Shown one piece after another: positions 7,440-21,907 of a stretch of DNA of 40,976 nucleotides (its first letter is position 1; every line of letters starts with the position of its first letter). The position numbers and the translations under genes are program-made. This DNA is from Minisyncoccota bacterium (lineage in GTDB: Bacteria > Patescibacteriota > Minisyncoccia > Phycocordibacterales > UBA918): assembly GCA_022841645.1 (NCBI GenBank), contig JALHRC010000012.1, forward strand, positions 1 to 40,976, read 5' to 3'. Under the pieces are notes generated by a model. The model was not told the origin of the DNA. It was given only the letters and a program-made list of their open reading frames with translations, and made no database searches.

Positions 7440-7468
7440 TTGACTAATTTGGTACACTGCGTTACTAT
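7440..7468 (+). promoter_or_regulatory. Strong sigma70-type promoter, apparently leaderless
   Basis: TTGACT (7440-7445), a 17-bp spacer and TACTAT (7463-7468) make the best consensus promoter I see in the window. Only six bases separate the -10 box from ATG 7475, so transcription should start at or next to the start codon. The second half of the early gene run (7475-9235) would be transcribed from it. Confidence 0.65.
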
Positions 7469-7474
7469 TTATGT

Positions 7475-7579
7475 ATGGACAGCACCGAGCTTAAAATTTT
7501 GAACCCGGCGGTTGCCCTAAAAATGGGGCTCATAAACTGGTTCGAATACTTCGAAGCCGTGCGCCAAATACAGGAGTAA
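7475..7579 (+). CDS. 34-residue peptide, first gene after an early promoter
   Basis: The ATG at 7475 opens a 34-codon frame (MDSTELKILNPAVALKMG...EAVRQIQE) that ends four bases before the next gene. No ribosome site precedes it and the promoter's -10 box is six bases upstream, so it would be translated from a leaderless mRNA. The CAGGAG in its last codons serves as ribosome site of the next gene. It could be a leader peptide or a true small protein. Confidence 0.5.
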   Translation: MDSTELKILNPAVALKMGLINWFEYFEAVRQIQE

Positions 7580-7583
7580 AAAT

Positions 7584-7748
7584 ATGCTAGGTGTACTAAT
7601 TGGCCTCGGCTTTATCGTGCTTTTTTGCATCCCAATTTTTATGGTGGTTTGCTCAGCCGTGATTGTTTTTGGCTGGTGGAAGGGCGCCCGTGACCGCAAA
7701 CGCGCTGCCCTCGAGAGCGCCAAAGCCCGCCGCGTGGGGTTGGTGTAG
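7584..7748 (+). CDS. Small membrane protein
   Basis: A 54-residue protein has one long transmembrane helix (about residues 3-32, rich in L, I, F and V, ending GWWKGARDRKR) followed by a basic tail that should stay in the cytoplasm. CAGGAG lies 7 bp before the ATG. Unknown role. Confidence 0.65.
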   Translation: MLGVLIGLGFIVLFCIPIFMVVCSAVIVFGWWKGARDRKRAALESAKARRVGLV

Positions 7749-7750
7749 TT

Positions 7751-8011
7751 ATGAGCAAGCAGCACACACCGGGGCCTTGGTTGGCATTTAAATACCCCGA
7801 CTCAAAAACTTGGAGCGTTACGACTAACAAAAGCCTGGCGCGCATGATTGAGCGTGAAGAAGACGCCCGACTCATCGCCGCCGCGCCGGAGATGCTAGAG
7901 GCGTTGAAGCTAGTGACTGCCGCGCTCCACCGATATGCGGGGCCAGAAACACCCCTTTACGAAATCACCCAAGCGAAGGCGGCCATCGCCAAAGCGGAGG
8001 GCCGGGAATAA
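7751..8011 (+). CDS. Conserved small phage protein (HTPGPW / ARLIAAAPEMLEALK type)
   Basis: The 86-residue protein carries the two signatures of a very common phage family: HTPGPW at the N-terminus and EEDARLIAAAPEMLEALK in the middle. The family is widespread in phages of Proteobacteria but its function is unknown. It sits between small early genes with only 2 bp upstream spacing and none downstream. Confidence 0.85.
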   Translation: MSKQHTPGPWLAFKYPDSKTWSVTTNKSLARMIEREEDARLIAAAPEMLEALKLVTAALHRYAGPETPLYEITQAKAAIAKAEGRE

Positions 8012-8338
8012 ATGAAACACTACCCCTTGAGGCGCACGGTGCGGTTCGATTGCATGGTGGACCGCAACCTCCGCGACCGCGCAAACGTTCTGCGCAAAAG
8101 AACCTGGCCCGACTTGATCGAGGAGAAATTCCGTGAGATCGAATGCGGGTTCGATTTAGTGAAGCTCGAAAAGGCGTGCCTCCGCGCCATGGTGGCTATG
8201 GACTACTTAAACAAAATCGGCAGCACTGAAATCCCCGACGCTAAGGACATAGCCCACCAGTTGCGCGTGGCCCTTAAGTACGTGGAAGAGCGCGAGCGCA
8301 TACGAAAGGTCAAAAATGCAAAACCGGAAAACTGCTAA
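8012..8338 (+). CDS. Small early protein, unknown
   Basis: A 108-residue, basic protein begins immediately after the preceding stop. The N-terminus (LRRTVRFDCMVDRNLRDRANVLRKRTWPDLIEEKFREIE) has the strand-helix-helix look of a ribbon-helix-helix domain, but the match is loose. The remainder is helical. Unknown function; a DNA-binding role is possible. Confidence 0.65.
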   Translation: MKHYPLRRTVRFDCMVDRNLRDRANVLRKRTWPDLIEEKFREIECGFDLVKLEKACLRAMVAMDYLNKIGSTEIPDAKDIAHQLRVALKYVEERERIRKVKNAKPENC

Positions 8339-8489
8339 CCAGGTTCGCTTAAGCATCGACGAAATAGACGCCATACTGCGGGGCCTCGGGGCCCTGCCAC
8401 GGCTCGGGTTCGAAGTGCCGCCGGGTTTAACCGACAAATTAATTTGGGCCCAAGCCCGGATGTATGAAAAGAAGAAAGGCTCAAAATGA
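8316..8489 (+). CDS. 57-residue early protein
   Basis: A short frame starts at ATG 8316, inside the end of the previous gene, and stops as ATGA at the next gene's start. The product begins MQNRKTANQVRLSIDEIDAI and ends in a basic tail. It fills the gap between two coupled genes exactly, which supports it being real. The N-terminal strand-like QVRLSIDEIDAIL could be part of a small DNA-binding fold. Unknown function. Confidence 0.6.
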   Translation: MQNRKTANQVRLSIDEIDAILRGLGALPRLGFEVPPGLTDKLIWAQARMYEKKKGSK

Positions 8490-8998
8490 AAGCGCGGGGC
8501 ACCATACGCTGGTTCGACTTCCTTTCTCAGGAGGGCATAGCGTCCTTGGATGGGGTCGGTGGCATTTACATAAATAACGATCCGGCTTTTGGCCATTTGC
8601 TCAACGGTGGAAAATGGGGCGGCCTTTTCGGAACCAGTGTAAGTGGTAAGCCTCTCTATCTAGATAACGGTGATTTTGTCGAATGCGAAGTGGTGGAAAA
8701 CCAAGCTTCAAAAATCCGCCTGCTCAACACCCAAGAGATCGAGGATTACCTTTCTGATAAATTGATTGAGGCTTTAGAGGGGGAAAATGAGATAGTGCTA
8801 AGCTGCGCTATAAACGACATTCTTAATTGCAGAGAGACTTGGACCTACAGGGGCATGCTAATACACCTTGTTCCCGGCCCATTGCTTACGGAAACGCGTA
8901 TCCGTTCGTTAAAAACCACGACCAAAAAGTCGTACTTGTACGCTGACCTGCCCGAAGCTATGCGCGCCATGCTCTCTTGCAAAGCTAAAGCCCGTTGA
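8486..8998 (+). CDS. Cold-shock-like OB-fold protein with extra C-terminal domain
   Basis: The 170-residue protein opens with GTIRWFDFLSQEGIASLDG, then GGIYIN and GDFVECEVV. These follow the cold-shock domain pattern G.IKWF....G.I....G.D.F.H......G..V.F.V, although the nucleic-acid-binding positions are altered. The last 90 residues are unrelated to CspA and contain two cysteines and a basic patch (TTTKKSYLYADLPEAM). It may bind RNA or ssDNA. It overlaps the previous gene by ATGA. Confidence 0.6.
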   Translation: MKARGTIRWFDFLSQEGIASLDGVGGIYINNDPAFGHLLNGGKWGGLFGTSVSGKPLYLDNGDFVECEVVENQASKIRLLNTQEIEDYLSDKLIEALEGENEIVLSCAINDILNCRETWTYRGMLIHLVPGPLLTETRIRSLKTTTKKSYLYADLPEAMRAMLSCKAKAR

Positions 8999-9031
8999 CA
9001 TATCCGCCCACCGCATGGTGGAACTAAAGCA

Positions 9032-9235
9032 ATGCACCAAGCCAGTTTCTTTTTTAAAGACCAGTTCGCCTGTGCGCCCTGCGGAGATACCGGGGTTATC
9101 AAGGAGTGGGTGGTTACGCCCAAAAAGCAAATAATCCCTAAGCGAACGGCGTGCCCGTGCTGCAAGCTGGGGGAAGAGCTTAAAAAGAAATTCGGTGTGC
9201 AGGCTTATGAGCCGGATATGGAACGGGCCGACTGA
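9032..9235 (+). CDS. Small zinc-ribbon protein
   Basis: The 67-residue product has CAPCGDTGVI and ACPCCKLGEE, two CxxC knuckles typical of a zinc ribbon or DnaJ-type finger. It ends the early rightward gene run, about 60 bp before a strong terminator. A CCACC-GCAT-GGTGG hairpin at 9008-9021 precedes its start and would cover a GGTGG that could serve as ribosome site. Function unknown. Confidence 0.65.
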   Translation: MHQASFFFKDQFACAPCGDTGVIKEWVVTPKKQIIPKRTACPCCKLGEELKKKFGVQAYEPDMERAD

Positions 9236-9297
9236 AGCGCTTACACGGCGCCGCTAAATTCGTCCCTACAATCTAAAGCAAACTCTTGCAAAAAAGT

Positions 9298-9338
9298 AAA
9301 GCCGCCCTCACGATAAAAAGTTAAGGGCGGCTTTATTT
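9298..9338 (+). terminator. Intrinsic terminator closing the early rightward operon
   Basis: AAAGCCGCCCT (9298-9308) pairs perfectly with AGGGCGGCTTT (9324-9334), an 11-bp stem followed by ATTTT. It stands between the last early gene and the first packaging gene, so late transcription needs either read-through, antitermination or a promoter near here. The next gene's ATG begins 6 bases after the stem. Confidence 0.85.
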
Positions 9339-9339
9339 T

Positions 9340-9825
9340 ATGAAACCAAAAAAAGGCGATTACAAAGTCGGGTACGGCAAACCCCCGCGCCGTTTTAAAC
9401 CGGGCGCTGAGTGGGATGGAAACCGCGAGGGCGGTCGCGCCCACGACCCGATGAAACGAGCGCTTCGAAAGCTCACCACTGAAGAGCTCCACACCATTAT
9501 CACCATGCTGCTCGACTACAGCGTGCGCGACCTAAAGCGCGTTGCCCGGAACACCAAAGAGCGCGCCATGGTGAGGTGGATCGCCAAGGTGATTGAAGAC
9601 GGCATGGGCATGGGCCGCCGCAAAAACGAAGTGAGCTTCGAGATTCTAAACCGCCTGCTCGATCGCACGATCGGGCCCGTGGGATCTAAGGTGGAGCTCA
9701 CCGGTTCGAACGGCGGGCCGATCCAATCTAACCACGTGCAATCTTTCCTGGCCCTTACCCCCGCCCAGCGCCGCGAGGAACTAGAAAACCTGCGCCGCGA
9801 GCGCGAGAAACTGGGCGAGGATTAG
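9340..9825 (+). CDS. DUF5681-type protein, possible small terminase subunit
   Basis: This 161-residue basic protein begins DYKVGYGKPPRRFKPG, the signature of the DUF5681 family found upstream of large terminase genes. The middle is helical (LTTEELHTIITMLLDYSVRDL) and the C-terminus is a coiled coil (RREELENLRREREKL), as expected for an oligomeric DNA-recognition subunit. No ribosome site is visible between the terminator stem and ATG 9340. The small-terminase role is inferred from position; two unrelated genes separate it from the large subunit. Confidence 0.6.
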   Translation: MKPKKGDYKVGYGKPPRRFKPGAEWDGNREGGRAHDPMKRALRKLTTEELHTIITMLLDYSVRDLKRVARNTKERAMVRWIAKVIEDGMGMGRRKNEVSFEILNRLLDRTIGPVGSKVELTGSNGGPIQSNHVQSFLALTPAQRREELENLRREREKLGED

Positions 9826-10950
9826 ATGGCTACAAAGTTTGTCCTAAGAGGCTCGGCGCTCACGGCCTACAAACACTCCGGCGGTGGCAAAGCCGCGGTT
9901 ACCTACGCGCCTGCCACGACTATCCCCGCCCTGGTGACCGATGCCGGCGCGATCGGCGGCCAGGCGATAAACTATGATACGGGCCAAACCGCTATCCGCG
10001 GGCACAATTTTCCGGGCTTTGACAACTGCTCAAAAAACCAGGCGCAGTCAATTCTGCATCGGTTCGCGCCTAGGTATTCCGGCACGCCCTCGCAAAACCA
10101 ATCGATTATCTCGATCGCGGGCCCGAGCTTTTTGGCCAACCTCCTATCGCTCGGCATCCAAATTTACCACAACACCTCTGGCAACCTTTTAGTAACGGCC
10201 AACAATACGCGGGGCCAGGTAATCCTAACCGCCAACACAAACATGGGCGCGTGGTCGCCCACGAGCGGGCAGTACTACGATTTTTGCATCGTGTGGGATG
10301 GCACCACCGGCACCAACGCCTTCAAGTTCTACATCGACGGCACGCTCTTTTACCAAGCCACACCCTCGCGGGCGTGGGCGACCGACTCAAAAGATTTTAT
10401 CCAAAGCTCGATCATGCTGGGCGTGGGCCACAGGGGCATTCAGTTTGGTGACTACTACACCAATGAATTTATTATCTGGGATGAAACGATCGACCCTACC
10501 TCTAGCGGCTTAAACCTAAACGGGTCGAGCCGCTCTAGCTATGTGTCGATTACGGGCACGCTCGACCCCACCGACTCTAGCGACCCGGGCGAGGCCAACG
10601 TGAGATCGGCCACAGCCTACACGATCAACGGCGTGGCCAAGACGGGCACGGCTGCTATCCCGAGCGCTGCAAACGTGCGCCAAGGCACCGCGGTGGACGC
10701 CACCACGGGCACGCTCAACTTGCCCGCCGAGGCCAACGTAAAGAGCGGGATTACCTTTGACGGCGCCACCAAGACTGGCACGCTGGTGTCCACAGACCCG
10801 GGCGAAGCCAACGTGGCTAGTGGCGTCTCCTACACCATTGAGAGTGTGGCCAAGCTCGGCACGCGGGCGGTCGTAACCAACGTGCTCAGCGACGCCGTTC
10901 TAACAGGCCAGAGTTTAGAAGCTACCTTGATCGGGGGAGAAAATGATTAA
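9826..10950 (+). CDS. LamG-like lectin-fold structural protein with C-terminal repeats
   Basis: The N-terminal 230 residues look like a concanavalin/LamG jelly-roll domain (YYDFCIVWDGTTGTNAFKF, then FYIDGTLFYQA). The C-terminal 110 residues hold four short repeats of the type ANVRSATAYTINGVAKTGT, which phages often carry in fibre or decoration proteins. It is probably a virion surface protein that binds glycans on the host. It starts right after the previous stop (TAGATG) and overlaps the next gene by 8 bp. Its place between the packaging genes is unusual. Confidence 0.6.
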   Translation: MATKFVLRGSALTAYKHSGGGKAAVTYAPATTIPALVTDAGAIGGQAINYDTGQTAIRGHNFPGFDNCSKNQAQSILHRFAPRYSGTPSQNQSIISIAGPSFLANLLSLGIQIYHNTSGNLLVTANNTRGQVILTANTNMGAWSPTSGQYYDFCIVWDGTTGTNAFKFYIDGTLFYQATPSRAWATDSKDFIQSSIMLGVGHRGIQFGDYYTNEFIIWDETIDPTSSGLNLNGSSRSSYVSITGTLDPTDSSDPGEANVRSATAYTINGVAKTGTAAIPSAANVRQGTAVDATTGTLNLPAEANVKSGITFDGATKTGTLVSTDPGEANVASGVSYTIESVAKLGTRAVVTNVLSDAVLTGQSLEATLIGGEND

Positions 10951-11272
10951 CGTAACCCAAGGCGATACCGCGACCCTTACACTTTATGCAAAGTCGGGCG
11001 TGGGCGAGTTCCACGACCTAACGGGCGCGAGCTTTGAAACAAAAATTAAAAAAACCGATGGCACTTTTTTGACCCTAGCCAACTCGGTGCATACTGCCGA
11101 CGGCAACCAGACCACAAACAAGGGTAAATTTACTTTGGCCCTTTCGGCTGCCGACACCGCGGCGCTCGCCGCGGGCGTGCGCGAGATCGTTACCAAGGTT
11201 ACGCAAACCCCTAGCGTGGTCCATTTTAGGGCCAAGGTTTTGACCGTCAAAAAGACCAATCCCGAAGAGTAG
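10943..11272 (+). CDS. BppU-N-like beta-sandwich protein
   Basis: A 109-residue protein starts TQGDTATLTLYAKSG, followed by DLTGASFETKIKKTDG. This resembles the N-terminal domain of siphophage baseplate upper proteins, which docks fibres to the virion. It overlaps the LamG-like gene by 8 bp, so the two probably act together as a decoration or fibre pair. It lies 8 bp before the large terminase. Confidence 0.55.
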   Translation: MINVTQGDTATLTLYAKSGVGEFHDLTGASFETKIKKTDGTFLTLANSVHTADGNQTTNKGKFTLALSAADTAALAAGVREIVTKVTQTPSVVHFRAKVLTVKKTNPEE

Positions 11273-11280
11273 AAGAATGC

Positions 11281-12786
11281 ATGGGCGCCTTGGATATAGA
11301 GCTAAAAGAGTACGAGCTACGGCGCGCCGACAAGCTCGCCCGTGCGCGCTCAGGGCTGCTCAGCTTTACCACCTACACTAAATCCGACTATGAGGTGAGC
11401 TGGCACCACCGCTTAACGTGCCAGTATCTAAATAATTTTGTCGCCGGTAAAATCCCGCGGCTAATGATTTTCGAGCCTCCAAGGCACGGTAAATCGGAGC
11501 TCACCTCCAGGCGCCTGCCCGCCTACCTGTTTGGCCGCTACCCTAAAACCTCGATCATAGGCACGAGCTACTCCGCCGATCTCGCCTCCCGGATGAACCG
11601 TGACGTGCAGCGGATTATCGATTCGCCTGAGTACGCTGAGCTTTTTCCAGACACCAAGCTGTCGGGCGACACCGTGCGCACCGGGGCCGCCGGCTCTTGG
11701 CTTAGAAACTCGGACATATTCGAGATCGTGGAGCACGGCGGAACCTACCGGAGCGCCGGCGTTGGTGGCGGTATCACGGGCATGGGTGGCGAGTGGCTGC
11801 TAATTGACGACCCGATTAAAAACCAAGAGGAAGCCGACTCTGAAACTTACCGTGAAAAACTTTGGGAGTGGTACACCTCAACGCTCTACACGCGGCTAGA
11901 AAAAGACGGCAAAATCCTAATCATCCTCACGCGCTGGCACGAAGACGACCTGGCGGGCCGGCTGCTAGAGCTCGCCAAGAGCGACCCGGACGCCGACCAG
12001 TGGGTCGTGCTAAACCTGCCCGCGATATATGAGGCCAAAGAAGCGCACCCACAAGACCCGCGGCGGGAGGGCGAAGCCCTGTGGCCGGAAAAGTATTCCG
12101 CCGAAAGGCTAAAAAAACTAAGGGCTAGCGTGGGCTCGCGAGTGTTCAACGCCCTCTATCAGCAGCGGCCTTCGGCGACTGAAGGCGCCACCATAAAGCG
12201 CAACTGGCTCCGCTACTACACCAAGGCGCCTGACCGCTTTGACGAAATAATCCAGTCTTGGGATTTAACTTTTAAGGACGCCAAAAACTCCGACTACGTG
12301 GTGGGGCAGGTATGGGGGCGCGTGGCCGCGAACAAATATTTAATCGATGAGGTGCGCGGGCGCATGGATATCGTGGGGACGATCAACGCTATTCTAGCGC
12401 TTTCGGCCAAACACCCAAAAGCCTACTTAAAATTGATCGAGGATAAAGCAAACGGGCCCGCGGTGATATCGCTTTTAAAAGAAAAACTTTCGGGCATCGT
12501 GGCGGTCGAGCCCCAAGGGTCTAAAGATTCTAGGCTGCTATCGGTTGCGCCCGACTATGAAGCGGGTAACGTGTACTACCCCGACCCGAGCATAGCCCCT
12601 TGGATCGGCGACCACGTAGAAGAGATCGTGGGTTTTCCCACAGCCAAGTTCCGTGACCGGGTGGACACGGCCAGCCAAGCCTTAAACCGCCTAAGGTCTA
12701 ACGCCAGTTCGGCCTTTACAAAAGAGCATATCCCTAACAGAATTAGTTCAATTACTTCAGGATTAAGGGGAGCAGAGGCATGGTAA
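11281..12786 (+). CDS. terL: Terminase large subunit
   Basis: This 501-residue motor and nuclease packages DNA into the prohead. The ATPase domain has Walker A FEPPRHGKSE (residues 64-73), Walker B EWLLIDDP (171-178) and coupling motif LTRWHEDD. The RNase H-like nuclease domain starts near IIQSWDLTFKD (D328) and contains further acidic residues at LIEDKANG and a late DRVDTASQ. The length is normal for the family. The ATG at 11281 follows an AGAAG. The gene overlaps the portal gene by 7 bp, the usual order. Confidence 0.95.
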   Translation: MGALDIELKEYELRRADKLARARSGLLSFTTYTKSDYEVSWHHRLTCQYLNNFVAGKIPRLMIFEPPRHGKSELTSRRLPAYLFGRYPKTSIIGTSYSADLASRMNRDVQRIIDSPEYAELFPDTKLSGDTVRTGAAGSWLRNSDIFEIVEHGGTYRSAGVGGGITGMGGEWLLIDDPIKNQEEADSETYREKLWEWYTSTLYTRLEKDGKILIILTRWHEDDLAGRLLELAKSDPDADQWVVLNLPAIYEAKEAHPQDPRREGEALWPEKYSAERLKKLRASVGSRVFNALYQQRPSATEGATIKRNWLRYYTKAPDRFDEIIQSWDLTFKDAKNSDYVVGQVWGRVAANKYLIDEVRGRMDIVGTINAILALSAKHPKAYLKLIEDKANGPAVISLLKEKLSGIVAVEPQGSKDSRLLSVAPDYEAGNVYYPDPSIAPWIGDHVEEIVGFPTAKFRDRVDTASQALNRLRSNASSAFTKEHIPNRISSITSGLRGAEAW

Positions 12787-14147
12787 AGCGATTGTTGAAC
12801 GCCATCGGGCTTGGTGCTCCTGCTGCCCCCATCCCCTTTGACACGGCACCAAAGAAGACCGTGAAAATTGGCTCCGTTGGAACCGAAGTATACGCGGGCT
12901 ATTTTTCCGAAGAGTACCTCGACAAGCTCAAAGGGCATAAGCTCGCAAAAGAGTTCGATAAATTTCGCCGCTCCGACCCCCAGGCCAAAATGCTATTGCG
13001 CGCCGTTAAAAATCCGATCGTGGCGGCTAAGTGGGAAATTGAGCCGGCCTCTGATAGCCCTGAGGATATCGCCGACGCTGAGCTCGTTAACCACATTCTT
13101 TTTAAAGACTGTGAAAAGCCCTTTGCTAAGACCGTAAACGAGGCCCTTACCTGCGTTGATTTTGGGCACGCCGTTTTGGAAAAAACTTTTAAGACCGTCT
13201 ACAACCACCCCAAGTTTGGCACCTTCCACGGTATCGAGTCGCTAGACTTGATCTCTGCAAAAACTATTGAGCGGTGGAACTTTGACAATGAAACAAAAAA
13301 ATTAAAATCGATCACGCAACTGGCCGACGGGGATTTGCGTGCGCACGTAGAGATACCGATTTGCTACCTCATGCTTTTCTCTCTGGATATGGAGGGGGCA
13401 AACCACGAGGGCGTATCCTGGCTTCGCGCCTGCTACGGAAACTACTTTAGAAAAAACCTGTACCTAAAACTAAACGGCATCGGCATTGAAAAGTTCGCCG
13501 TTCCAACACCAATTTTAAAATTTGCTCAAGGCTCGCAAAACGATGAGCAATTTAACTACGTGCTGGAGGCCCTGGAGGTATACACCTCGGGCCAGTCTAA
13601 CTATCTAACTATCCCCCACGGGTACGAGCTAGAGCTAAACGGAAACAAGTACGAGCCCGATAAAGTCGAAGCCTCTATCGACAAAGAAGATGCCCGGATG
13701 AGCAAGGCTTTCCTGGCGAACTTCTTAGAGCTGGGCATGAGCGGCACGGGGGCCTATGCGCTATCCAATGATCTCTCCGACTTCTTTCTATCGGGCATAA
13801 CCCATATCGCCGATGAGGTGGTGGGCGTATTTAACCGCCACCTAATCCCCGAGCTCGTAAAGATGAACCGGGGCCCGCGCTCCGACTACCCCAAGCTAAA
13901 GCACGGGGGCATATCGGATAAAGCCGGCAAAGAGCTCGCCGAGATCATTAAGCTCTACATTGACGGCGGGGTTATCGTGCCGGACGACCAGCTAGAAGAG
14001 ACGATGCGGCGGCGCCACAACCTGCCCAAAGCGTCTTTGATCGGCCAGCGCAAACCCGCCCCGCCTGCCTTCGGTGGTGGGGGCTTCGGCGGCCCGCCCG
14101 CCCAAGGCACTCTCTCCGAGCGGGTTAGAAAAAAACTATATGGCTAA
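12780..14147 (+). CDS. Portal protein, DUF935 (Mu gp29-like)
   Basis: This 455-residue protein forms the dodecameric ring through which DNA enters the head. Its order of segments matches the DUF935 portal family: RSDPQAKMLLRAVKNPIVAA, DFGHAVLEKTF, DLISAKTIERWNFD and LGMSGTGAYALSNDLSDFF. The C-terminus becomes proline- and glycine-rich. The ATG overlaps the terminase end; AGGGGAG lies upstream. It overlaps the MuF gene by 8 bp. Confidence 0.9.
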   Translation: MVKRLLNAIGLGAPAAPIPFDTAPKKTVKIGSVGTEVYAGYFSEEYLDKLKGHKLAKEFDKFRRSDPQAKMLLRAVKNPIVAAKWEIEPASDSPEDIADAELVNHILFKDCEKPFAKTVNEALTCVDFGHAVLEKTFKTVYNHPKFGTFHGIESLDLISAKTIERWNFDNETKKLKSITQLADGDLRAHVEIPICYLMLFSLDMEGANHEGVSWLRACYGNYFRKNLYLKLNGIGIEKFAVPTPILKFAQGSQNDEQFNYVLEALEVYTSGQSNYLTIPHGYELELNGNKYEPDKVEASIDKEDARMSKAFLANFLELGMSGTGAYALSNDLSDFFLSGITHIADEVVGVFNRHLIPELVKMNRGPRSDYPKLKHGGISDKAGKELAEIIKLYIDGGVIVPDDQLEETMRRRHNLPKASLIGQRKPAPPAFGGGGFGGPPAQGTLSERVRKKLYG

Positions 14148-15015
14148 AAATACCCCGCGCTCGCTCATTAAAGAGTCAGCGTCTATCCTAAAAGAAGTGA
14201 TGCTCGTGGAGCTCTCCTCTATTGGAGACGCGATAATCGCTAAAATTATAGGGCGAGCGCGGGGGCTCTCTCCTTCGGAGCGTTTGCGTGCGATCAAGGA
14301 TGTACCTTGGCCGGGCGAGATGGCCTACCAGCAGCGGATTACCGAGGCCCTGGCAGAGATCGCTTTTGAGGCCCTGCAAAAAGCCCGCAAAGAAGTGCCC
14401 AAGGCCGAGCGCATCCGGCTGGTGGAAGAGCTCGACTCGACCCAGTTCGCGGCCACGACGCTTTTAGAAAAGCTGCCACGATCGACGCAAAAGTTTATCA
14501 GGAAACAAGCTGAGCTCTTGGTGGGAACGCAGCTCCAAGACCTGCAAAAAAATCTTTTCTACCAGTACACCGACTCTTACGACACAACGGACGACCTTGA
14601 CCTTGTGGGCGCGGACCTGCGCGAAGCCGCGGCGGAGTATATAGATGGGCAGGCCGTAACGGGCGGCGCCGGGTTGCTCGCTTCGAAGACGGTTAACGAA
14701 GCGCGAAATGCTTTTTTTTTCGAGCCCGAAGTTTTAGAGCAAGTAGACGCCTTCGAATTCGTAAACGGCGATCCCGTTACCGAGGTTTGCCAAGACCTTA
14801 ACGGTACCGTGTTTGCTAAAGACGACCCAGAAATGTTTCGCTACACGCCGCCCTTACACTGGAACTGTAAGAGCTATATTCGGCCCATTCTAAAAGGAAA
14901 GCTTGGGGGCCGGGAGATCGAAAAGCTAAAACCCTCCACCAAGGCGATTGAAGAAACTATCCAGTTTTCGGAAAATTACTTGACGACCTACCCGAGCTGC
15001 CCCCACCATTCCTAA
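14140..15015 (+). CDS. MuF-like minor head protein
   Basis: The 291-residue product is a minor capsid protein of the Mu gpF/SPP1 gp7 type, injected with or bound inside the head. The C-terminal signature is clear: EVCQDLNGTVFAKDDPEMF, then PPLHWNCKSYIRPIL, with the conserved C...DG..F....P.H..C pattern. The N-terminal 180 residues are helical. I chose ATG 14140, which overlaps the portal stop by 8 bp; an earlier in-frame start at 14074 would lie deep in the portal gene. Confidence 0.88.
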   Translation: MAKNTPRSLIKESASILKEVMLVELSSIGDAIIAKIIGRARGLSPSERLRAIKDVPWPGEMAYQQRITEALAEIAFEALQKARKEVPKAERIRLVEELDSTQFAATTLLEKLPRSTQKFIRKQAELLVGTQLQDLQKNLFYQYTDSYDTTDDLDLVGADLREAAAEYIDGQAVTGGAGLLASKTVNEARNAFFFEPEVLEQVDAFEFVNGDPVTEVCQDLNGTVFAKDDPEMFRYTPPLHWNCKSYIRPILKGKLGGREIEKLKPSTKAIEETIQFSENYLTTYPSCPHHS

Positions 15016-15017
15016 AT

Positions 15018-16016
15018 ATGCTGAAAAAATTACGCTTTCTCCCTTCGGAGATAAAGCTCTCGGAACTTGAAGCCGGCGCGGTCGCCCCGCCTAAGCGCAT
15101 TCAGGTTATGCGCACGGGAAAATTCCGGCACCCCGACGGTAATTTTAATATCACCAAAGAGCACCTCGACGGGTTTGTAAAAAACTTCAACGACAACACC
15201 CGCGGCATCGATATCATGCTCGACTATAAGCACGACTCGGAGGCCGAGGCCGCCGCGTGGTTTAAAGGGCTGGAAGTGCAGCCGCTCGAAAACGCAAACG
15301 AGTACGGCCTTTTTGCCGAAGTCGATTGGACCGAGCCGGGCGCCGAGAAAGTTTCTAAGAAAGAGTTTCGTTACGTCTCCGCGGATTTTACGCTGCGCTA
15401 CAAGGACAACGAAACCGGGAAAGATTTCGGCCCCGTACTGCTCGGTGCGGGGCTTACCAATCGGCCTTTCATTAAAGGGATGGAGCCGGTTGTACAATTG
15501 AGCGAAAACGAAAAAGGAGTTACCGGTATGAACCTAGAACAAGCGCTTGCTAAGATCGCCGAACTGGAAGCTAAGCTCGCCCAAATGGGCGGCATGCCCG
15601 AGCAAATGGGCCAAATGAAACAGCAGCTCTCCGACGCCCAAAAAGAGATCGACGCCTACAAAGCCAAAGAAGCTGAAGCCGACAAGGCTGTAAAGATGGC
15701 CGAGAAAACGAGCAAGTTCGACCGAATGCTCTCGGAGAAAAAAGTTGTTGAAGCCCAGCGCGCCCCCTTTATGGCTGACGACTTCGCCAAGTTCGCTGAG
15801 CTCGCCCAGCCTGTTTTGAAAGACAAAAAACTTTCTGAAGGCGGCGAAGGTGGCGAGGGCGGCGAAGGCGATAGCGACGCTCAAGACCAAATCATTAAGC
15901 TCGCTGAAGGCCTCGTAAAAGAAGGCAAAGTAAAAAGCCTGCGCGGCGGTATCTCCATGGTGCTCGCTGACCCGGCCAACAAAAAACTGGCCGAAGAATA
16001 TAACTCGCTCGTTTAA
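15018..16016 (+). CDS. Prohead protease with scaffold domain (Mu gpI-like)
   Basis: The first 170 residues resemble the Mu I prohead protease: an early MRTGKFRHPDG, then GIDIMLDYKHDSEAEAAAWF, and the late GAGLTNRPFIKGM. The last 160 residues are a coiled-coil scaffold with glutamine-rich (MGQMKQQLSDAQKEI) and glycine/glutamate-rich (EGGEGGEGGEGD) parts. The protein should assemble in the prohead, cleave head proteins and then itself. It lies 2 bp after the MuF gene. A strong internal start at 15528 would give the scaffold alone. Confidence 0.88.
   Translation: MLKKLRFLPSEIKLSELEAGAVAPPKRIQVMRTGKFRHPDGNFNITKEHLDGFVKNFNDNTRGIDIMLDYKHDSEAEAAAWFKGLEVQPLENANEYGLFAEVDWTEPGAEKVSKKEFRYVSADFTLRYKDNETGKDFGPVLLGAGLTNRPFIKGMEPVVQLSENEKGVTGMNLEQALAKIAELEAKLAQMGGMPEQMGQMKQQLSDAQKEIDAYKAKEAEADKAVKMAEKTSKFDRMLSEKKVVEAQRAPFMADDFAKFAELAQPVLKDKKLSEGGEGGEGGEGDSDAQDQIIKLAEGLVKEGKVKSLRGGISMVLADPANKKLAEEYNSLV
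15528..16016 (+). CDS. Nested in-frame scaffold protein (Mu gpZ-like)
   Basis: AAAAAGGAG (15511-15519) sits 8 bases before ATG 15528, in the same frame as the protease. Initiation here gives a 162-residue scaffold (MNLEQALAKIAELEAKLAQ...) without the catalytic domain. Mu and lambda make scaffold in excess by exactly this arrangement. The start falls at the boundary between protease and coiled-coil, which supports it. Confidence 0.75.
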   Translation: MNLEQALAKIAELEAKLAQMGGMPEQMGQMKQQLSDAQKEIDAYKAKEAEADKAVKMAEKTSKFDRMLSEKKVVEAQRAPFMADDFAKFAELAQPVLKDKKLSEGGEGGEGGEGDSDAQDQIIKLAEGLVKEGKVKSLRGGISMVLADPANKKLAEEYNSLV

Positions 16017-16046
16017 CATTTTACCAAAACCGAAAGGGAACAAAAT

Positions 16047-16436
16047 ATGTCCATGGGTACTACCTCTCCAAAACGTCTCCTGTCTTTCAAAGTTGCCGCC
16101 GCCTGCGCCCGCGGGCTCGTGGTAAAGCCCGGCTCTTCGCGTGAGCACGTGGCCGTGGTGTCCGCTGCCACCGATAAAGGTATCGGCATCCTGCAAAACA
16201 CCACGACCGCCGCTAACGAAATTGCCGAAGTGGCCCTGCCCGGCGGCGGCGCTATCGCCAAGCTCGGCGGCACCGTGGCCTTTGGCGATATGCTTGGCTT
16301 CAACACCGGTGGCAAATTGATCAAAGTAGCCCAAGCCTCTGACCGCGTAATTGCCATGGCGATGGAAGACGGCGTGGCCGATGACCTGATCGCCGTTGAA
16401 GTTATGGTGCATAAAGCCGAATCCGCGCAGTCTTAA
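16047..16436 (+). CDS. Capsid cement/decoration protein (DUF2190-like)
   Basis: The 129-residue protein lies between scaffold and major capsid genes, where decoration proteins usually sit. It has the small beta-rich pattern of DUF2190-type proteins: RGLVVKPGSSREHVAV, GIGILQNTTTAANEIAEVAL, GGTVAFGDMLGFNTGGKLI. It probably binds the outer capsid. A GAAAGGGAA ribosome site precedes the ATG. Confidence 0.75.
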   Translation: MSMGTTSPKRLLSFKVAAACARGLVVKPGSSREHVAVVSAATDKGIGILQNTTTAANEIAEVALPGGGAIAKLGGTVAFGDMLGFNTGGKLIKVAQASDRVIAMAMEDGVADDLIAVEVMVHKAESAQS

Positions 16437-16467
16437 TTTAAATTTCAAGGAAAGGAAAAACTAACTC

Positions 16468-17409
16468 ATGCCTTCTCAGAACAGAGCTATTGTAGACAAG
16501 TTGCTCACCAACGTGAGCAATATGAAATCCACCCAAGGGCACATTTCCGAAATGCTGCTCACCCCGCTGGACGTTAAACAGCGCACCGGTAAGGTTGCCG
16601 GCTACGGCCAAAACCACCTGCGTATTGTTAACTCGATCAAGCGTGGTCGCGGCAAATACCGCGAAGTTGAGGCCGTAGTTCGTAGCCAAACCAGCTACGA
16701 AATCGAAGGCCACGGCCTTGAGGGCATGATCACCCAAGAGGATTACGACAACGTAGAAGCGCCCTACGATGCCGAGCAAGACGAAGTGGAGTCGATCACC
16801 TCTATCCTGCTCCAGGAAAAAGAGTATATCCTCTCGCAGGCTCTCGCTGATACGGCGGTGCTCACCCAGAACACCACCCTGGCCGGCGCCCAGCAGTTCT
16901 CCGACTACAATAACTCCGACCCTCTTGCCATCGCTCTCGCCGCCCGTGCGGCTGTGCGCGCCGGCTGCGGCCAGGTAGCTAACGTAGCCTGGTGTGACTA
17001 TGCGGTAGCGGATACCCTCCGGTTCCACCCCCAAATCCTCGACTCTCTCGGATTTAAGCAAGCCCGCCCGGGCGGCCTCTCCGACGAAGAGCTCGCAAAA
17101 GCCTTCAAGGTGAAAAAATTCATGGTGGCCGAAGCCATGTACCAAAGCGCAAACGAAGGCCAAGGCAACTCGGCCCTCACCGCTCTCTGGGGCAAACACC
17201 TCTGGTTCGGTTGCATCGCCGACGGCGCCGCTAAACGCCAAACGACTCTGGGCTACCGCCTGGGCCTGACCGGCAAAGCTCCCCGTTCGGTATCGAAGTG
17301 GGCGATCAACAACCCCCGCGGCGCCACCGCCGTGTTGGTTGAAGACGAGTACGACTTCTTGCTTACCGACGTAGGCGCCGCCTACTTCGTTAAAAACGCC
17401 ATCGCTTAA
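16468..17409 (+). CDS. Major capsid protein
   Basis: This 313-residue protein follows the cement gene and has the size and layout of HK97-fold capsid proteins of Mu-like head modules: an N-arm, then KYREVEAVVRSQTSYEIEGHGLE (E-loop region), a helical middle with QEKEYILSQALADTAV, and WCDYAVADTLRFHPQILDSL in the P-domain. AAGGAAAGG upstream is a strong ribosome site. The bias to common codons and the GC-rich hairpin after it fit a highly expressed gene. Confidence 0.88.
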   Translation: MPSQNRAIVDKLLTNVSNMKSTQGHISEMLLTPLDVKQRTGKVAGYGQNHLRIVNSIKRGRGKYREVEAVVRSQTSYEIEGHGLEGMITQEDYDNVEAPYDAEQDEVESITSILLQEKEYILSQALADTAVLTQNTTLAGAQQFSDYNNSDPLAIALAARAAVRAGCGQVANVAWCDYAVADTLRFHPQILDSLGFKQARPGGLSDEELAKAFKVKKFMVAEAMYQSANEGQGNSALTALWGKHLWFGCIADGAAKRQTTLGYRLGLTGKAPRSVSKWAINNPRGATAVLVEDEYDFLLTDVGAAYFVKNAIA

Positions 17410-17440
17410 ACAAAAAACCAAACGCACTCGCGCCGCTAGT

Positions 17441-17468
17441 GGGGGAGGGAGGTAAAACCCCCTCCCCC
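17441..17468 (+). other. GC-rich hairpin downstream of the capsid gene
   Basis: GGGGGAGGG (17441-17449) and CCCTCCCCC (17460-17468) form a perfect 9-bp stem with a 10-base loop. No T-run follows, so it is more likely a transcript-stabilising or processing hairpin than a terminator. It separates the capsid gene from the next structural gene. Confidence 0.6.
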
Positions 17469-17494
17469 TGCGCACGAAAAGGGAGAAAGATTTT

Positions 17495-18157
17495 ATGAAA
17501 ATGATTTTTGCACTCGCTACTATGCTCGCCGGCATCACCTCCGAAGCCGCGACCCGCCCCTACTACCAGGACATTAAGCTGCCTACGCAGAAAATGATCG
17601 AGTTCCAAGCGATCGATAACCCGGCTGCCGCCTCGACTTCCAACGGTCTTTTGGCAAATGCCGGCGCAACCTCGGCTGCCGCCGTAGTTGTATCGACCTT
17701 CCTGGCCCAGCCCGACGTAGCCCGCAACCTCGTACTAACCCCTGGTGGAACCACCACGGACGTAGAGGCTTGCAACGTGGTGGCCGCTGGTACCGATATG
17801 AACAGCAACGCGATCACTGAGACGCTGGCTTTCTCGGCCAACGCATCCTCGGCAACCACCGGTAACAAGGCGTTTAAAACCCTCTCCTCGCTCACGTTTC
17901 CCGCGAACTGCGAGAGCGGCGCTTTTGGTGCGACCTGGAGCCTGGGCTACGGCGAGAAACTTGGCGTGAAACGCTGCATGGACAAAGCCGGCCACATTCT
18001 TTTCTCCACCCTCAACGGTGCGAAAGAAGCGACCGCCCCCACCATGGCGGCTGATGCCTCCGTGCTCTCCCTCAACACCGCGGACTATAACGGCACTATG
18101 AACGGCTCGAATGATTTTGAGCTCTTCTTTATGCAAAACTTCCGCTGCACCCGGTAA
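17495..18157 (+). CDS. Structural protein, possible head fibre or decoration
   Basis: The 220-residue protein has a short hydrophobic N-terminus, then NLVLTPGGTTTDVEA and ITETLAFSANASSATTGNKAFKTLSSLTFP. This beta-rich pattern recurs in virion proteins encoded just after the capsid gene. GGGAGAAAG precedes the ATG. The exact location in the virion is not visible. The N-terminal MKMIFALATMLAGITSEAA resembles a signal peptide, which would be odd for a head protein, so the start may lie elsewhere. Confidence 0.55.
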   Translation: MKMIFALATMLAGITSEAATRPYYQDIKLPTQKMIEFQAIDNPAAASTSNGLLANAGATSAAAVVVSTFLAQPDVARNLVLTPGGTTTDVEACNVVAAGTDMNSNAITETLAFSANASSATTGNKAFKTLSSLTFPANCESGAFGATWSLGYGEKLGVKRCMDKAGHILFSTLNGAKEATAPTMAADASVLSLNTADYNGTMNGSNDFELFFMQNFRCTR

Positions 18158-18163
18158 GCAGAT

Positions 18164-18604
18164 ATGAGAAAGTTTATCTGTAAAGGCAACTTTGTTACGG
18201 GCGAAAAAGGCTCGTACGTCCACCACCGTAAGGGCGAGGCGTTCGAACCTAAAGACGAAGCCCAGGCCCAAGAGCTCACTGCCGCGGGCCTCATCATTGA
18301 TCGCGATGAGATCACCGTGGAAGAGCTAGACGGCCTCCAAAAAAAGATCGATGCGGCGAGAAAAGAGCTCGCCGCATTAACGGACCAGTTGAAAACTTTG
18401 CAGTCAAAGCCGCTAGAGCCCGTGCAGAATCCCGCCGGAACCGAACCGAGTGGTGAGGAAGACGAGCCCGTGCAGAATCCCGCCGGAACCGAACCGAGTG
18501 GTGAGGAAGACGAGCCCGTGCAGAATCCCGCCGGAACCGAACCGAGTGGTGAGGAAGACGAGCCCGATTTTGACTATGCAAAAAAGAAAAAGAAAAACCG
18601 GTAA
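18164..18604 (+). CDS. Small structural protein with three identical 16-residue repeats
   Basis: This 146-residue protein has an N-terminal domain (RKFICKGNFVTGEKGSYVH) and a coiled coil (LQKKIDAARKELAALTDQLKTL). Three identical EPVQNPAGTEPSGEED repeats follow, then a basic tail (KKKKKNR). It sits between a structural gene and the DUF1320 connector gene, so a virion or connector role is likely. The repeat region is acidic and probably disordered. Confidence 0.65.
   Translation: MRKFICKGNFVTGEKGSYVHHRKGEAFEPKDEAQAQELTAAGLIIDRDEITVEELDGLQKKIDAARKELAALTDQLKTLQSKPLEPVQNPAGTEPSGEEDEPVQNPAGTEPSGEEDEPVQNPAGTEPSGEEDEPDFDYAKKKKKNR
18416..18559 (+). repeat. Three perfect 48-bp tandem repeats
   Basis: Units 18416-18463, 18464-18511 and 18512-18559 are identical over 48 bp, followed by a partial fourth (GAGCCCG). 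They are in frame inside the preceding gene. Perfect identity at all positions indicates recent expansion or gene conversion. Confidence 0.95.
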
Positions 18605-18613
18605 GAGGTAGCA

Positions 18614-19060
18614 ATGGCCTACGCCACCAAAGCACAAATTGCGTCCGAAGCCAAAATTGGCCGGGAGTTCGGTAGCGACACGCTGCCCACCGCCGACAAG
18701 GTGGACGAAATTATCGCCGAGGTGGAGGCCATGATCGACGCGGCGATCGGGAGAAAGTACACGGTGCCGGTTACCGGCGCCGCTAACCTCCTGATCGTCC
18801 GCTCGATCTCCATAGCGCTTTGCGTCGAGCGCGTGCGCGCCATAATGGACGCCAGCGAGCCGATCGAGGAGGGTAAGCCCGACCCCTCTAAGAACCAAAA
18901 AATGATCGCTAAAGACGCCCGCGGGCGCCTAGCCGCGATCGTGAGCGGAGAGCTGCCCCTCGCCGGCATGGGTCTCTTGAGCTCCAGCGACGGCATCCGT
19001 AGCTACGCTGTGTCAAACAGGATCGAGCCCGTACTGCGCCGCGGGGTCGATCAATGGTAA
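18614..19060 (+). CDS. Head-tail connector, DUF1320 (Mu gp36-like)
   Basis: The 148-residue protein resembles Mu gp36-type adaptors: it begins MAYATKAQIASE, then has the helical KVDEIIAEVEAMIDAAIGRKYTVPV pattern and ends near the YAVSNR.EP region. It should sit under the portal and link head and tail. It overlaps the next gene by 7 bp. Confidence 0.82.
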   Translation: MAYATKAQIASEAKIGREFGSDTLPTADKVDEIIAEVEAMIDAAIGRKYTVPVTGAANLLIVRSISIALCVERVRAIMDASEPIEEGKPDPSKNQKMIAKDARGRLAAIVSGELPLAGMGLLSSSDGIRSYAVSNRIEPVLRRGVDQW

Positions 19061-19542
19061 AACCCCAAGTTGACCCGGGCGGAAAACTCGCGGCGGCTTT
19101 AAGAAAAGCCGGGCAAAAGGTGAGTGACTTAACACTCCCCCTCCAATTAATTTCTCAGCAGTGGTTTAAATCAAACTTCGCCATTTTCACTTTGAAGAGC
19201 CAAGGCAAATACGTGGATCTCTCGGAGCTCTACAAGCCCCGCAAACAGGCCGCGGTGGGTTTTGTATACCCCATTTTGAAGCGCACGGGCCTGCTCTCTA
19301 AATCGATCACCGAGCCCGCGCACCCCAACGCGATCTCCCTTATCATAAATCGAAAGGCGCTCACCCTCGGCACCAACGTGGCGTATGCGAACTTTCTCCA
19401 CCAAGGGACGAAAAAAATGCCGGCGCGCCCCGTGGTGCTTTTTGGTAACGAGCAGGTGGCGCCCGGCGCGCTTAAGAACCGCGTAAAACAGTGGGAACAA
19501 GAGATCCTAAATTACGCGGCCCAAGTTTCGGGGGCGGTCTAG
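19054..19542 (+). CDS. Head-tail joining/tail completion protein (Mu gpG or HK97 gp10-like)
   Basis: This 162-residue basic protein ends with the family signature YANFLHQGTKKMPARPVVLF. The preceding ALTLGTNVAYA also fits phage virion morphogenesis proteins. It probably binds the connector and completes the head or tail. It overlaps the DUF1320 gene by 7 bp, a common pairing. Confidence 0.8.
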   Translation: MVKPQVDPGGKLAAALRKAGQKVSDLTLPLQLISQQWFKSNFAIFTLKSQGKYVDLSELYKPRKQAAVGFVYPILKRTGLLSKSITEPAHPNAISLIINRKALTLGTNVAYANFLHQGTKKMPARPVVLFGNEQVAPGALKNRVKQWEQEILNYAAQVSGAV

Positions 19543-19543
19543 C

Positions 19544-20026
19544 ATGGCTCGTTACGACCTTGAAGCCCTGCTGGCCGATCTAAAAAGCATCTGCACGACC
19601 AGCCTAAACGCCAAGCTCACGGAGATCACAACCGAGAAAGCCGACGCCGTGGCCATGCCGGAGATATCCGGGGACGCATATTTTTTTCAGCGTATCGAAA
19701 AGAACCGGGCCGCCGCGTTCCCCGCTTTTGTTTTCTACTCGGTGGAAGACCCCACAGCGGCGGACGGCCTCGGGCCGCACACGCTGGAGGATTACACGAT
19801 CACGTTTATCGTGGTGCTCAAAGACACCGCCGACGGCGAAAAGTTTTCTACGCGGCTGCTTCGGTACTCTCGGGCGCTTAAGGAATTGTTTGAAACCGCT
19901 AGTTACGGGAGCAAATTACGGGCTAAAATCCGTGTATCCAGTGTTAGCCCCCAGTCTTTCGGGATCGACGGCCTGGCCGGCGTATTCAAAGGCGTAGGGG
20001 TTCAAGTTAAAACGGTGGTGGGGTAA
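19544..20026 (+). CDS. Tail terminator-like protein (Mu gp37-like)
   Basis: The 160-residue protein lies between the head-tail joining gene and the tail tube gene, where tail terminators normally are. It begins with a helix (YDLEALLADLKSI), then strands AFPAFVFYSVEDPTA and DYTITFIVVLKDTADGEKF, consistent with that fold. Assignment rests mainly on position. Confidence 0.65.
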   Translation: MARYDLEALLADLKSICTTSLNAKLTEITTEKADAVAMPEISGDAYFFQRIEKNRAAAFPAFVFYSVEDPTAADGLGPHTLEDYTITFIVVLKDTADGEKFSTRLLRYSRALKELFETASYGSKLRAKIRVSSVSPQSFGIDGLAGVFKGVGVQVKTVVG

Positions 20027-20238
20027 TGGCGAAAAAAGAAAATTCAAAATTCGACCAGGCCATGCAGGACGAAGGTATGCCGGGGTTCGGCATTATGGGC
20101 CGCGTGGGCCGCGCAAAAAAAGATTTTGAGATCGTTCAAGGTGACGTAAAAATTTCGATAAAACAAGGTGACGAAATTTCGGAGGCGAAGGTTCCCAAAA
20201 AATATTGGGCGAACCTCAAGACCGAAGGCGTTCTATAA
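20026..20238 (+). CDS. Small tail-region protein
   Basis: The 70-residue lysine-rich product ends VPKKYWANLKTEGVL, a pattern recalling the small Mu gp38-type proteins (DUF2635) encoded just before the tail proteins. It starts on the previous gene's last base (TAATG). The role is unknown. Confidence 0.6.
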   Translation: MAKKENSKFDQAMQDEGMPGFGIMGRVGRAKKDFEIVQGDVKISIKQGDEISEAKVPKKYWANLKTEGVL

Positions 20239-20259
20239 CAAGGAAGGGGCTATAAATTT

Positions 20260-21141
20260 ATGGGCTTAAGCAATCCGCGTTCCACATACGGCATCCACTC
20301 GGCATCGCCGTACAACCGCTCTACGGGGCTTTTTTACGGCACGATGAAAGTGCTCGATTCTTCGAGCCTCTCGCTCACCGCCGAGCAAAACGACCTAACG
20401 GGCGGCTCTAACAAGTATCCCTGGGCTTCTGAAGACGGCGCGATCTCTGCGGAGATGAGCCTTAAAGTCGGCCAAATGGAAGATTTTATGTTTGAGCTTT
20501 TCCTAGGAAAAGCCCCCACCGCCCAGTCGGCTGAGACAAGCGGAAACGTGAGCACGCTCACAAATAAAAACGGCACCTCCGTGGTGGCCGCTACCGGTAT
20601 CGCTAGCGTGTCGGCTATCACCACGACTGGCCCCGCTAACCTGAAGTTTGGTAAATACGTGGTTAAAGCTATGAGCGCCACCACGGTAAAAGTTTACCAC
20701 TCGACCGATATTGACCACGCTCGCGGCACTGATGTCGAGTACGCCGACGACCAGCTCTCTGTTACCGCTTCGGCTCTCACGATCACCACGGGCGCGGATA
20801 CCAATATCGCCGCCCTCGGTGTAAAACTCGTGGGCGGCGCGGGCACCATTGGGATGACCACCGGTGATACCGCTACCTTCGAAGTTCGCCCGATCAACAC
20901 CAAGAGCATGGGCGTTCGCATCGGCGCCGCTGCCGACGTGTTCCCGGAGTTCGGCTGTATCATTATGGCCCAGCAGCGCTCGACCGGCGAAATGTTTGAA
21001 GTGGACGCATTCCGCTGCAAAGCTAGCGGCATGCCCATCGGCTTCGAAGCCTTCGCTTGGAACAAGCCCGAAGTAAAAGCCAAGCTGCTCTACGATAGCG
21101 TGAAAAACGGCGTATTCGACGTACGCCACGTGACGCCCTAA
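20260..21141 (+). CDS. Major tail tube protein
   Basis: The 293-residue protein sits directly before the tail chaperone and tape measure genes, the position of siphophage tail tube subunits. It is beta-rich: DSSSLSLTAEQNDLTGG, EDGAISAEMSLKVGQMEDFMFELF, and FPEFGCIIMAQQRSTGEMFEV, which fit a tube fold that can carry an Ig-like insertion. AAGGAAGGGG gives a strong ribosome site. A strong terminator follows. No sheath gene is nearby, so the tail is non-contractile. Confidence 0.8.
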   Translation: MGLSNPRSTYGIHSASPYNRSTGLFYGTMKVLDSSSLSLTAEQNDLTGGSNKYPWASEDGAISAEMSLKVGQMEDFMFELFLGKAPTAQSAETSGNVSTLTNKNGTSVVAATGIASVSAITTTGPANLKFGKYVVKAMSATTVKVYHSTDIDHARGTDVEYADDQLSVTASALTITTGADTNIAALGVKLVGGAGTIGMTTGDTATFEVRPINTKSMGVRIGAAADVFPEFGCIIMAQQRSTGEMFEVDAFRCKASGMPIGFEAFAWNKPEVKAKLLYDSVKNGVFDVRHVTP

Positions 21142-21153
21142 CTGCTAGAGATA

Positions 21154-21191
21154 AAAGCCCGCTCCGGGGGGAACCGGGGCGGGCTTTACTT
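21154..21191. terminator. Bidirectional intrinsic terminator after the tail tube gene
   Basis: AAAGCCCGC (21154-21162) pairs with GCGGGCTTT (21179-21187), and inner CCGG/CCGG extends the stem to about 13 bp. T-rich sequence follows on both strands (ACTTTTTT on the plus strand, TTATCT on the minus). It would limit rightward transcription after the tail tube gene and end leftward transcription from the small RHH gene, whose stop codon lies inside the stem. Confidence 0.85.
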
Positions 21192-21335
21192 TTTTGCGGC
21201 GATGCTAGAGCGGCGCACCCACTCGGACACGTTACCGTTGGTGTACGCGCTGGCCAGGAATCTAAGCCGCGCCCACTCTTCGGAGTTAACCCGGATCTCT
21301 ACCGTTTTTGTACGGACGCTTTTTTTCTTTCCCAT
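21186..21335 (-). CDS. 49-residue ribbon-helix-helix protein, antisense in the late region
   Basis: The minus strand from ATG 21335 encodes a 49-residue basic protein: a basic start, a strand KTVEIRVNSEEWARL, and a helix-turn-helix-like NGNVSEWVRRSSI. This strand-helix-helix pattern and size fit Arc/CopG-type RHH DNA-binding proteins. It is the only leftward gene in the 4.7-34.4 kb region. No ribosome site is present; a promoter at 21342-21370 places its -10 box 6 bases from the ATG. It likely regulates phage transcription or itself. Confidence 0.65.
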   Translation of the reverse strand: MGKKKSVRTKTVEIRVNSEEWARLRFLASAYTNGNVSEWVRRSSIAAKK

Positions 21336-21341
21336 GTTTGC

Positions 21342-21370
21342 ATTATGTAGGGACACGCCCTAAACTTCAA
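21342..21370 (-). promoter_or_regulatory. Leftward sigma70 promoter for the RHH gene
   Basis: On the minus strand TTGAAG (21370-21365), a 17-bp spacer and CATAAT (21347-21342) precede ATG 21335 by exactly six bases. The -10 box matches five of six consensus positions and the -35 box four of six. The same 6-base geometry occurs at the 7440 promoter, suggesting a leaderless transcript. The -35 box lies just upstream of the plus-strand chaperone start at 21374. Confidence 0.55.
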
Positions 21371-21373
21371 TGC

Positions 21374-21907
21374 ATGAAACCTGTTTCAATAGAAGACGTA
21401 ATCCCGGCGGCGCCTGAGTTTTTCCTAAAAAGAAAAGATCGGTTTTTTGAGATCCGCCCACCAAACATGCTCGACCAAGTTTGGTTCAAAGAAAAGTATC
21501 CGGGGGATGAAACCCTAGGCGGCATTTTGCAATCCCTCAACTGGCAGGAGATATGCAAAATCGTGTACCGCCTGCTCACCCCCGAGGCGCGGGCGGAGTT
21601 CCCGGCTACGGTCGCAAAAGACCTGGACGAAAACGGCGAGCCCACCGAAATGAAGCTCACCGGCCCCGAGCACTTGCTAGTTTCTCTGGGTGACCTAAAC
21701 GAATGCCTCGGGATGCTAACCGCGCTCACCCGTGCGATCATGCTCTCCAACCCCCTCGCCGCGGAAATGGTGGAGAGCGAGGTAAAAAAAAGTCTAGCGG
21801 CGATCAAGACGCAGGCCGTAAAACGTCCGGGCAAACCGACTGGGCACAAATCTTTTTCGACCTCCACGACGCGTTCGGCTGGTCGAAAGAATACATCGCG
21901 TCGCTAA
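21374..21907 (+). CDS. Tail assembly chaperone, short form (gpG-like)
   Basis: This 177-residue protein lies immediately before the tape measure gene, the usual place for a tail chaperone. I chose ATG 21374; an in-frame TTG at 21308 would add residues antisense to the RHH gene. It starts MKPVSIEDVIPAAPEFFLKR and has the PNMLDQVWFKEKYPGDE and NWQEICKIVYRLL segments. A run of eight A bases at 21784-21791 allows a -1 frameshift into the longer form. Confidence 0.8.
   Translation: MKPVSIEDVIPAAPEFFLKRKDRFFEIRPPNMLDQVWFKEKYPGDETLGGILQSLNWQEICKIVYRLLTPEARAEFPATVAKDLDENGEPTEMKLTGPEHLLVSLGDLNECLGMLTALTRAIMLSNPLAAEMVESEVKKSLAAIKTQAVKRPGKPTGHKSFSTSTTRSAGRKNTSRR

Follow-up and report, generated by a model that had tools for sequence, protein, structure and literature searches.

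The window analysed here, a stretch of 40,976 nucleotides, is a whole contig (C12 of genome G000) that was binned into a genome of 1.1 Mb with small-genome relatives. It represents a tailed phage, with genes encoding TerL, a Mu-type portal and a VapE-like primase. The tail tube of this phage was absent from 98 relatives (0.4-1.7 Mb) of the 1.1-Mb bin genome holding the phage contig, and the assignment of the phage contig to the binned host is doubtful. The contig ends, 1-881 and 39923-40807, form a mutual repeat with 78-96% identity and a spacing of 39922-39926, a pattern that a join across strain variants would produce in a circular or terminally redundant genome of about 39.9 kb. The comparison of the tail-tube sequence with named phage records revealed no close relative, and the search for tRNA and Rfam families detected no tRNA and no Rfam match. 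A 48-bp unit is present in three perfect tandem copies inside a late gene (18416-18566). The starts of two adjacent small genes (6552-6602 and 6839-6889) share 94% identity over 51 nt, a possible tandem gene duplication. The membrane protein encoded at 32692-33837, adjoining an amidase gene, showed a weak match to O-antigen ligase (Wzy_C; 25 bits against a cut-off of 31.7), and its gene is possibly a surface modification gene.

Two loci of the window possess predicted promoters close to start codons (Table 1). At locus A, the promoter precedes a 34-aa ORF, and the next gene, starting at 7584, has its Shine-Dalgarno (SD) sequence within the end of this ORF. At locus B, the divergent ATGs at 21335 and 21374 are separated by 38 bp, which hold two overlapping, face-to-face promoters.

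Table 1. Features predicted or identified at loci A and B of the phage contig.
Feature	Position	Strand	Details
Promoter A, TTGACT-N17-TACTAT	7440..7468	+	TTGACT 7440-7445, TACTAT 7463-7468; highest promoter-at-start score (12.1) of 55 starts
Box A, TGTCCATACATAA, overlapping the ATG of 7475	7469..7481	-	Exact matches to core TGTCCNTACA and extended TGTCCMTACATAA
34-aa ORF, predicted leaderless, first gene of unit 7475-9235	7475..7579	+	No SD (+0.7); coding score
Site C, TCGTCCCTACAA, 80 nt upstream of putative TerS gene; candidate only	9260..9271	+	Best window match of the box matrix of the relatives
Terminator-like hairpin closing unit 7475-9235	9293..9339	+	-26 kcal/mol, z -6.6
Hairpin between convergent tail-tube and RHH genes, usable both ways	21154..21187	.	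Terminator-like
Gene of 49-aa RHH-like protein	21186..21335	-	Pfam NikA-like 2e-4, below cut-off; antisense gene conserved in relatives
Site D, CGTCCGTACA, second box-like site within 5' end of RHH gene	21309..21318	-	Box search and matrix
Divergent promoter TTGCAT-N17-TAAACT, 7 nt before ATG 21374	21338..21366	+	Score 10.4, second of 55
Promoter B of RHH gene, TTGAAG-N17-CATAAT	21342..21370	-	TTGAAG 21370-21365, CATAAT 21347-21342; score 10.2, third of 55
Box B, TGTCCCTACATAA, between the two divergent ATGs, over promoter B -10	21343..21355	-	Exact matches to core TGTCCNTACA and extended TGTCCMTACATAA
Gene in tail-assembly chaperone position, third SD-less start	21374..21907	+	SD +1.8; closest relative L017 has a promoter at the same gene

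The original prediction had placed promoters A and B six bases before their start codons and had described both starts as lacking the SD sequence that almost all other genes here possess. Both motifs and spacings were found, with the -10 of promoter A ending at 7468, six bases before ATG 7475, and that of promoter B ending at 21342, six bases before the minus-strand ATG 21335. The SD duplex energies are +0.7 (7475) and +1.0 (21335), while nearly all other starts range from -3 to -15, in agreement with that description. In the SD energy table, from which two entries with wrong start coordinates were left out, clearly positive values were confined to 7475, 21374, 21335 and 15018. The promoter fit was scored at 55 annotated starts, with the -10 ending 5-8 nt before the start, and the ranking was 7475, 21374, 21335 and then 15018 (6.2). 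The predicted leaderless class has at least three members, with 21374 added to 7475 and 21335, and 15018 is possibly a weak fourth. The 34-aa and 49-aa ORFs look coding, with scores of +0.5 and +0.17 bits per codon, respectively, both exceeding all 45 short spurious ORFs used as null. A minus-strand site near 4590 with a spacing of five bases was dropped as a further class member for lack of a coding signal (score -0.16).

Promoter sites of such quality are present in the window at or moderately above the number expected by chance (8 against 9.8 expected, and 17 against 9.2 expected). In contrast, the window contains two cases of a promoter followed by exactly six bases and an ATG with an ORF of at least 30 codons, whereas 60 dinucleotide shuffles gave 0.05 such cases on average and never two; here, as elsewhere in this analysis, thresholds were chosen with the data already in view. 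In leaderless genes of the TA-led type, a -10-like hexamer precedes the start by roughly 10-12 bp (PMC3160421), and both 7475 and 21335 have such a hexamer at this distance, together with the absence of an SD sequence that is the second mark of this type. With this -10 geometry, transcription would be expected to begin at the A of the ATG. This geometry, which fits best at SD-less genes of the window and recurs at SD-less ribbon-helix-helix (RHH), chaperone and TerS starts of relatives, argues for leaderless starts as originally proposed.

The 49-aa protein encoded by the gene at locus B is predicted to be a small, RHH-like DNA-binding protein. Its resemblance to the NikA-like (RHH) profile of Pfam is weak (21.9 bits, below the cut-off of 27), and a weak match to this profile was also obtained for nine out of eleven family members. 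AlphaFold gave a poor model (pLDDT 60), in which a candidate strand precedes two helices (18-32 and 38-48); the helix pattern would fit an RHH protein, for which a strand-helix-helix arrangement of about 45 residues is expected. Foldseek with this model detected no PDB match, the PDB sequence search with the 49-aa protein returned nothing, and PHROGs and NCBIfam provided no usable name for it.

About 40 IMG/VR contigs possess the RHH gene in the same place, antisense and immediately following the tail-tube gene. No relatives were found with the early genes 8486 and 2159 as queries, nor with the tail tube in GTDB genomes, and locus A (7475) is therefore outside the conservation comparison. Among the RHH, chaperone and TerS starts of the relatives, which are not independent of each other and whose starts were chosen by profile alignment, the best promoter is located 6-8 nt before the start in thirteen out of twenty-six SD-less starts and in one out of thirty-nine SD-bearing starts, the window excluded (Fisher 6.8e-6 overall, 8e-4 for RHH alone and 0.054 for chaperone alone). 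A strong promoter at this distance was found at seven out of forty-one RHH and TerS starts of the relatives, again without the window, against 0.37 in shuffles. Among SD-less RHH starts, those of L038, L053, L057, L021 and L046 have their best promoter 6-8 nt ahead of the ATG. The exact arrangement -35/N17/-10/N6/ATG is present at the TerS starts of three relatives, and the chaperone start of the closest relative, L017, reads TTGCCA-17-TAATCT-6-ATG.

Leaderless starts are probably real, yet they do not appear to be fixed across the relatives, in many of which the gene is preceded by a leader and an SD sequence. SD-like pairing was found at 21 of the 33 scored RHH starts, and the RHH gene thus has no need of leaderlessness. 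The RHH gene of L002 possesses the box described below, followed by a leader containing GGCGGAG. At the TerS start of G100, the word GGTGAT pairs with the anti-SD from a position 11 nt ahead of the ATG; it was judged too distant, and this start was counted as SD-less in the comparison above. Whether relatives that keep the genes also keep the promoters, which the original prediction had made a test, received a mixed answer: the RHH gene frequently occurs with an SD sequence and a longer leader. The same -10 to ATG distance, which the original prediction had proposed to look for in related phages, recurs at part of the SD-less starts, as given above; the broad histogram of these distances shows only a mild peak at 6-7. 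This mild peak, together with the near-chance number of promoter-like sites overall and a promoter motif that may not be that of the host, would suit chance look-alikes, the genes being transcribed with leaders from promoters located upstream or internally and translated independently of an SD sequence. We consider this quite unlikely, given the spacing-specific excess in the window and relatives alike, and given the RHH gene, which is antisense to its neighbours and therefore needs its own promoter.

Upstream regions of the RHH gene in relatives contain the palindrome TTGTN4ACAA, often as TTGTCCGTACAA, the right half of which can double as a -10. The full palindrome is present at eight out of thirty-eight RHH starts of relatives, against 0.13 expected and at most two in any of 300 shuffles. 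In L053 and L057, TTGTCCGTACAAT occurs exactly, 6-7 nt before the RHH ATG. The core TGTCCNTACA, taken from the relatives and derived with no part played by site A, has exactly two exact matches in the window, one over promoter B (21346-21355) and one over the start of A (7472-7481). The match of both sites extends to TGTCCMTACATAA, which has no other exact match in the window and is a variant of the palindrome. The palindrome over the RHH gene's own promoter is present but imperfect in the window; boxes A and B deviate from that of the relatives in the two outer positions, and the matrix of the relatives ranks them low. As at site A, the box overlaps the ATG in L010, L021 and L006. It lies directly before TerS in G099, G100 and G104, cases that were found through the box and hence not picked blind to it. 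Site C falls in the 4.5% non-coding part of the window, and is regarded as a candidate only, because the promoter search found no good promoter nearby and a hairpin lies downstream. At the RHH gene of L017, the closest relative, the box is absent. The pattern TTGTCCGKACAAT-N4-8-ATG, searched across viral contigs, yielded mostly chance matches and was set aside.

The original prediction had regarded a deliberate leaderless class, which could escape a control dependent on ribosome sites, as what joins both sites. Such an escaping class is not supported; the shared operator-like box and the gene of its likely binder explain the pair better. Real leaderless starts with no common regulator, the box being a coincidence or promoter sequence, would agree with the geometry evidence, which holds without the box, and with chaperone starts such as that of L017, leaderless-like without one. 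This account appears rather unlikely to us, as the core of the relatives matches the window exactly twice, at A and B, and the palindrome is enriched at RHH starts and also occurs before TerS.

The box differs among lineages, with TGTGATCACA in some. In L018, L041, L043, L045 and L048, a different palindrome, TTGTGATCACAA or near to it, replaces TTGTCCGTACAA upstream of the RHH gene, perhaps reflecting a changed operator specificity. The unrelated L158, a 71.7-kb phage contig, carries TTGTCCGTACAAT on its minus strand, at a distance of 8 nt from the following gene, whose product looks like a further small RHH protein but gave no match in the Pfam search. A host regulator or another phage protein as the reader of a real box would be consistent with this variation between lineages and with RHH binding being a prediction; it is very improbable in view of the box tracking the RHH gene start and of its occurrence in L158. 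The RHH protein could also be mainly a packaging or DNA-handling accessory of the NikA/MobC kind, with a packaging-related box on the TerS side. The NikA-like best Pfam resemblance and the box adjoining TerS point in this direction, whereas the position of the boxes on promoters and gene starts makes it very improbable as the main role. Packaging and regulatory roles are not exclusive, because RHH accessories such as MobC also autorepress (PMC4175270).

The reading that we consider probable is a small, self-controlled circuit of a tailed phage, in which the RHH protein would bind operators on leaderless promoters and regulate its own synthesis. It is built on features read from the DNA, namely promoter matches, spacing, SD absence, boxes, synteny and enrichment, from which we infer the transcription starts, leaderless translation, the identity of the binder, and repression rather than activation. 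The RHH gene, located antisense between the tail-tube and tail-chaperone genes, would have its own promoter and terminator. RHH and chaperone transcripts are predicted to begin at, or about one base from, the start codon, and such leaderless starts may result from the overlap of promoters and operators, with hardly any or no space remaining for a leader with an SD sequence. Bound to the central operator TGTCCCTACATAA, the RHH protein would shut its own gene and probably also the chaperone promoter. It would also control the unit 7475-9235, because the same box covers the start of the 7440 promoter; in relatives, this box appears to sit at the TerS promoter. The level of RHH protein would thereby set the RHH, chaperone and 7440 promoters, most likely by repression, which is preferred to activation because the boxes sit on -10 and start sites. 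More tentatively, and with doubt prevailing, a widespread, undescribed phage group may possess a leaderless, RHH-controlled switch governing RHH, the tail chaperone, TerS and an earlier unit, with operators reaching the start codons and one box acting at both promoter and start site.

To our knowledge, leaderless phage mRNAs are known mostly for immunity repressors, such as the leaderless repressor mRNA of lambda cI (PRM). P22 Arc is an RHH protein. PY54 cI and cro were found to be leaderless by RACE (PMC4488713). Similar to lambda cI and PY54 cI/cro, the window is predicted to have phage regulator transcripts starting at the AUG, in a divergent repressor region with operators over promoters. 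However, lambda cI and PY54 cI/cro are immunity repressors of the lambda type, and for PY54 the 5' ends have been mapped, while the window has an RHH-like protein within the tail module, and structural genes (the chaperone, and TerS in relatives) are apparently leaderless too, as predicted here. In the Anabaena CAST, CvkR and cas12k form a divergent pair of leaderless genes with a spacer of 82 nt, and the authors' assays point away from autoregulation of CvkR (PMC9938897). A regulator and a divergent target both leaderless (predicted for the window), a short spacer (82 nt against 38 bp) and a palindromic site are common to both, although CvkR is MerR-type and belongs to a different element. 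Among plasmid RHH autorepressors, MobC of RA3 has a promoter that contains a palindrome (PMC4175270). The window protein would share the RHH type with Arc and MobC, and with MobC also the palindrome over its own promoter; both differ in genomic place, and the likeness drawn here is one of protein type and, for MobC, of site.

The comparative leaderless signal reaches structural genes, namely those of the tail chaperone and the small terminase, and a single small, conserved regulator is linked to it. The RHH protein and its box offer a testable set of target promoters, and the relatives suggest that lineages switch the same gene between leaderless and SD-led starts.
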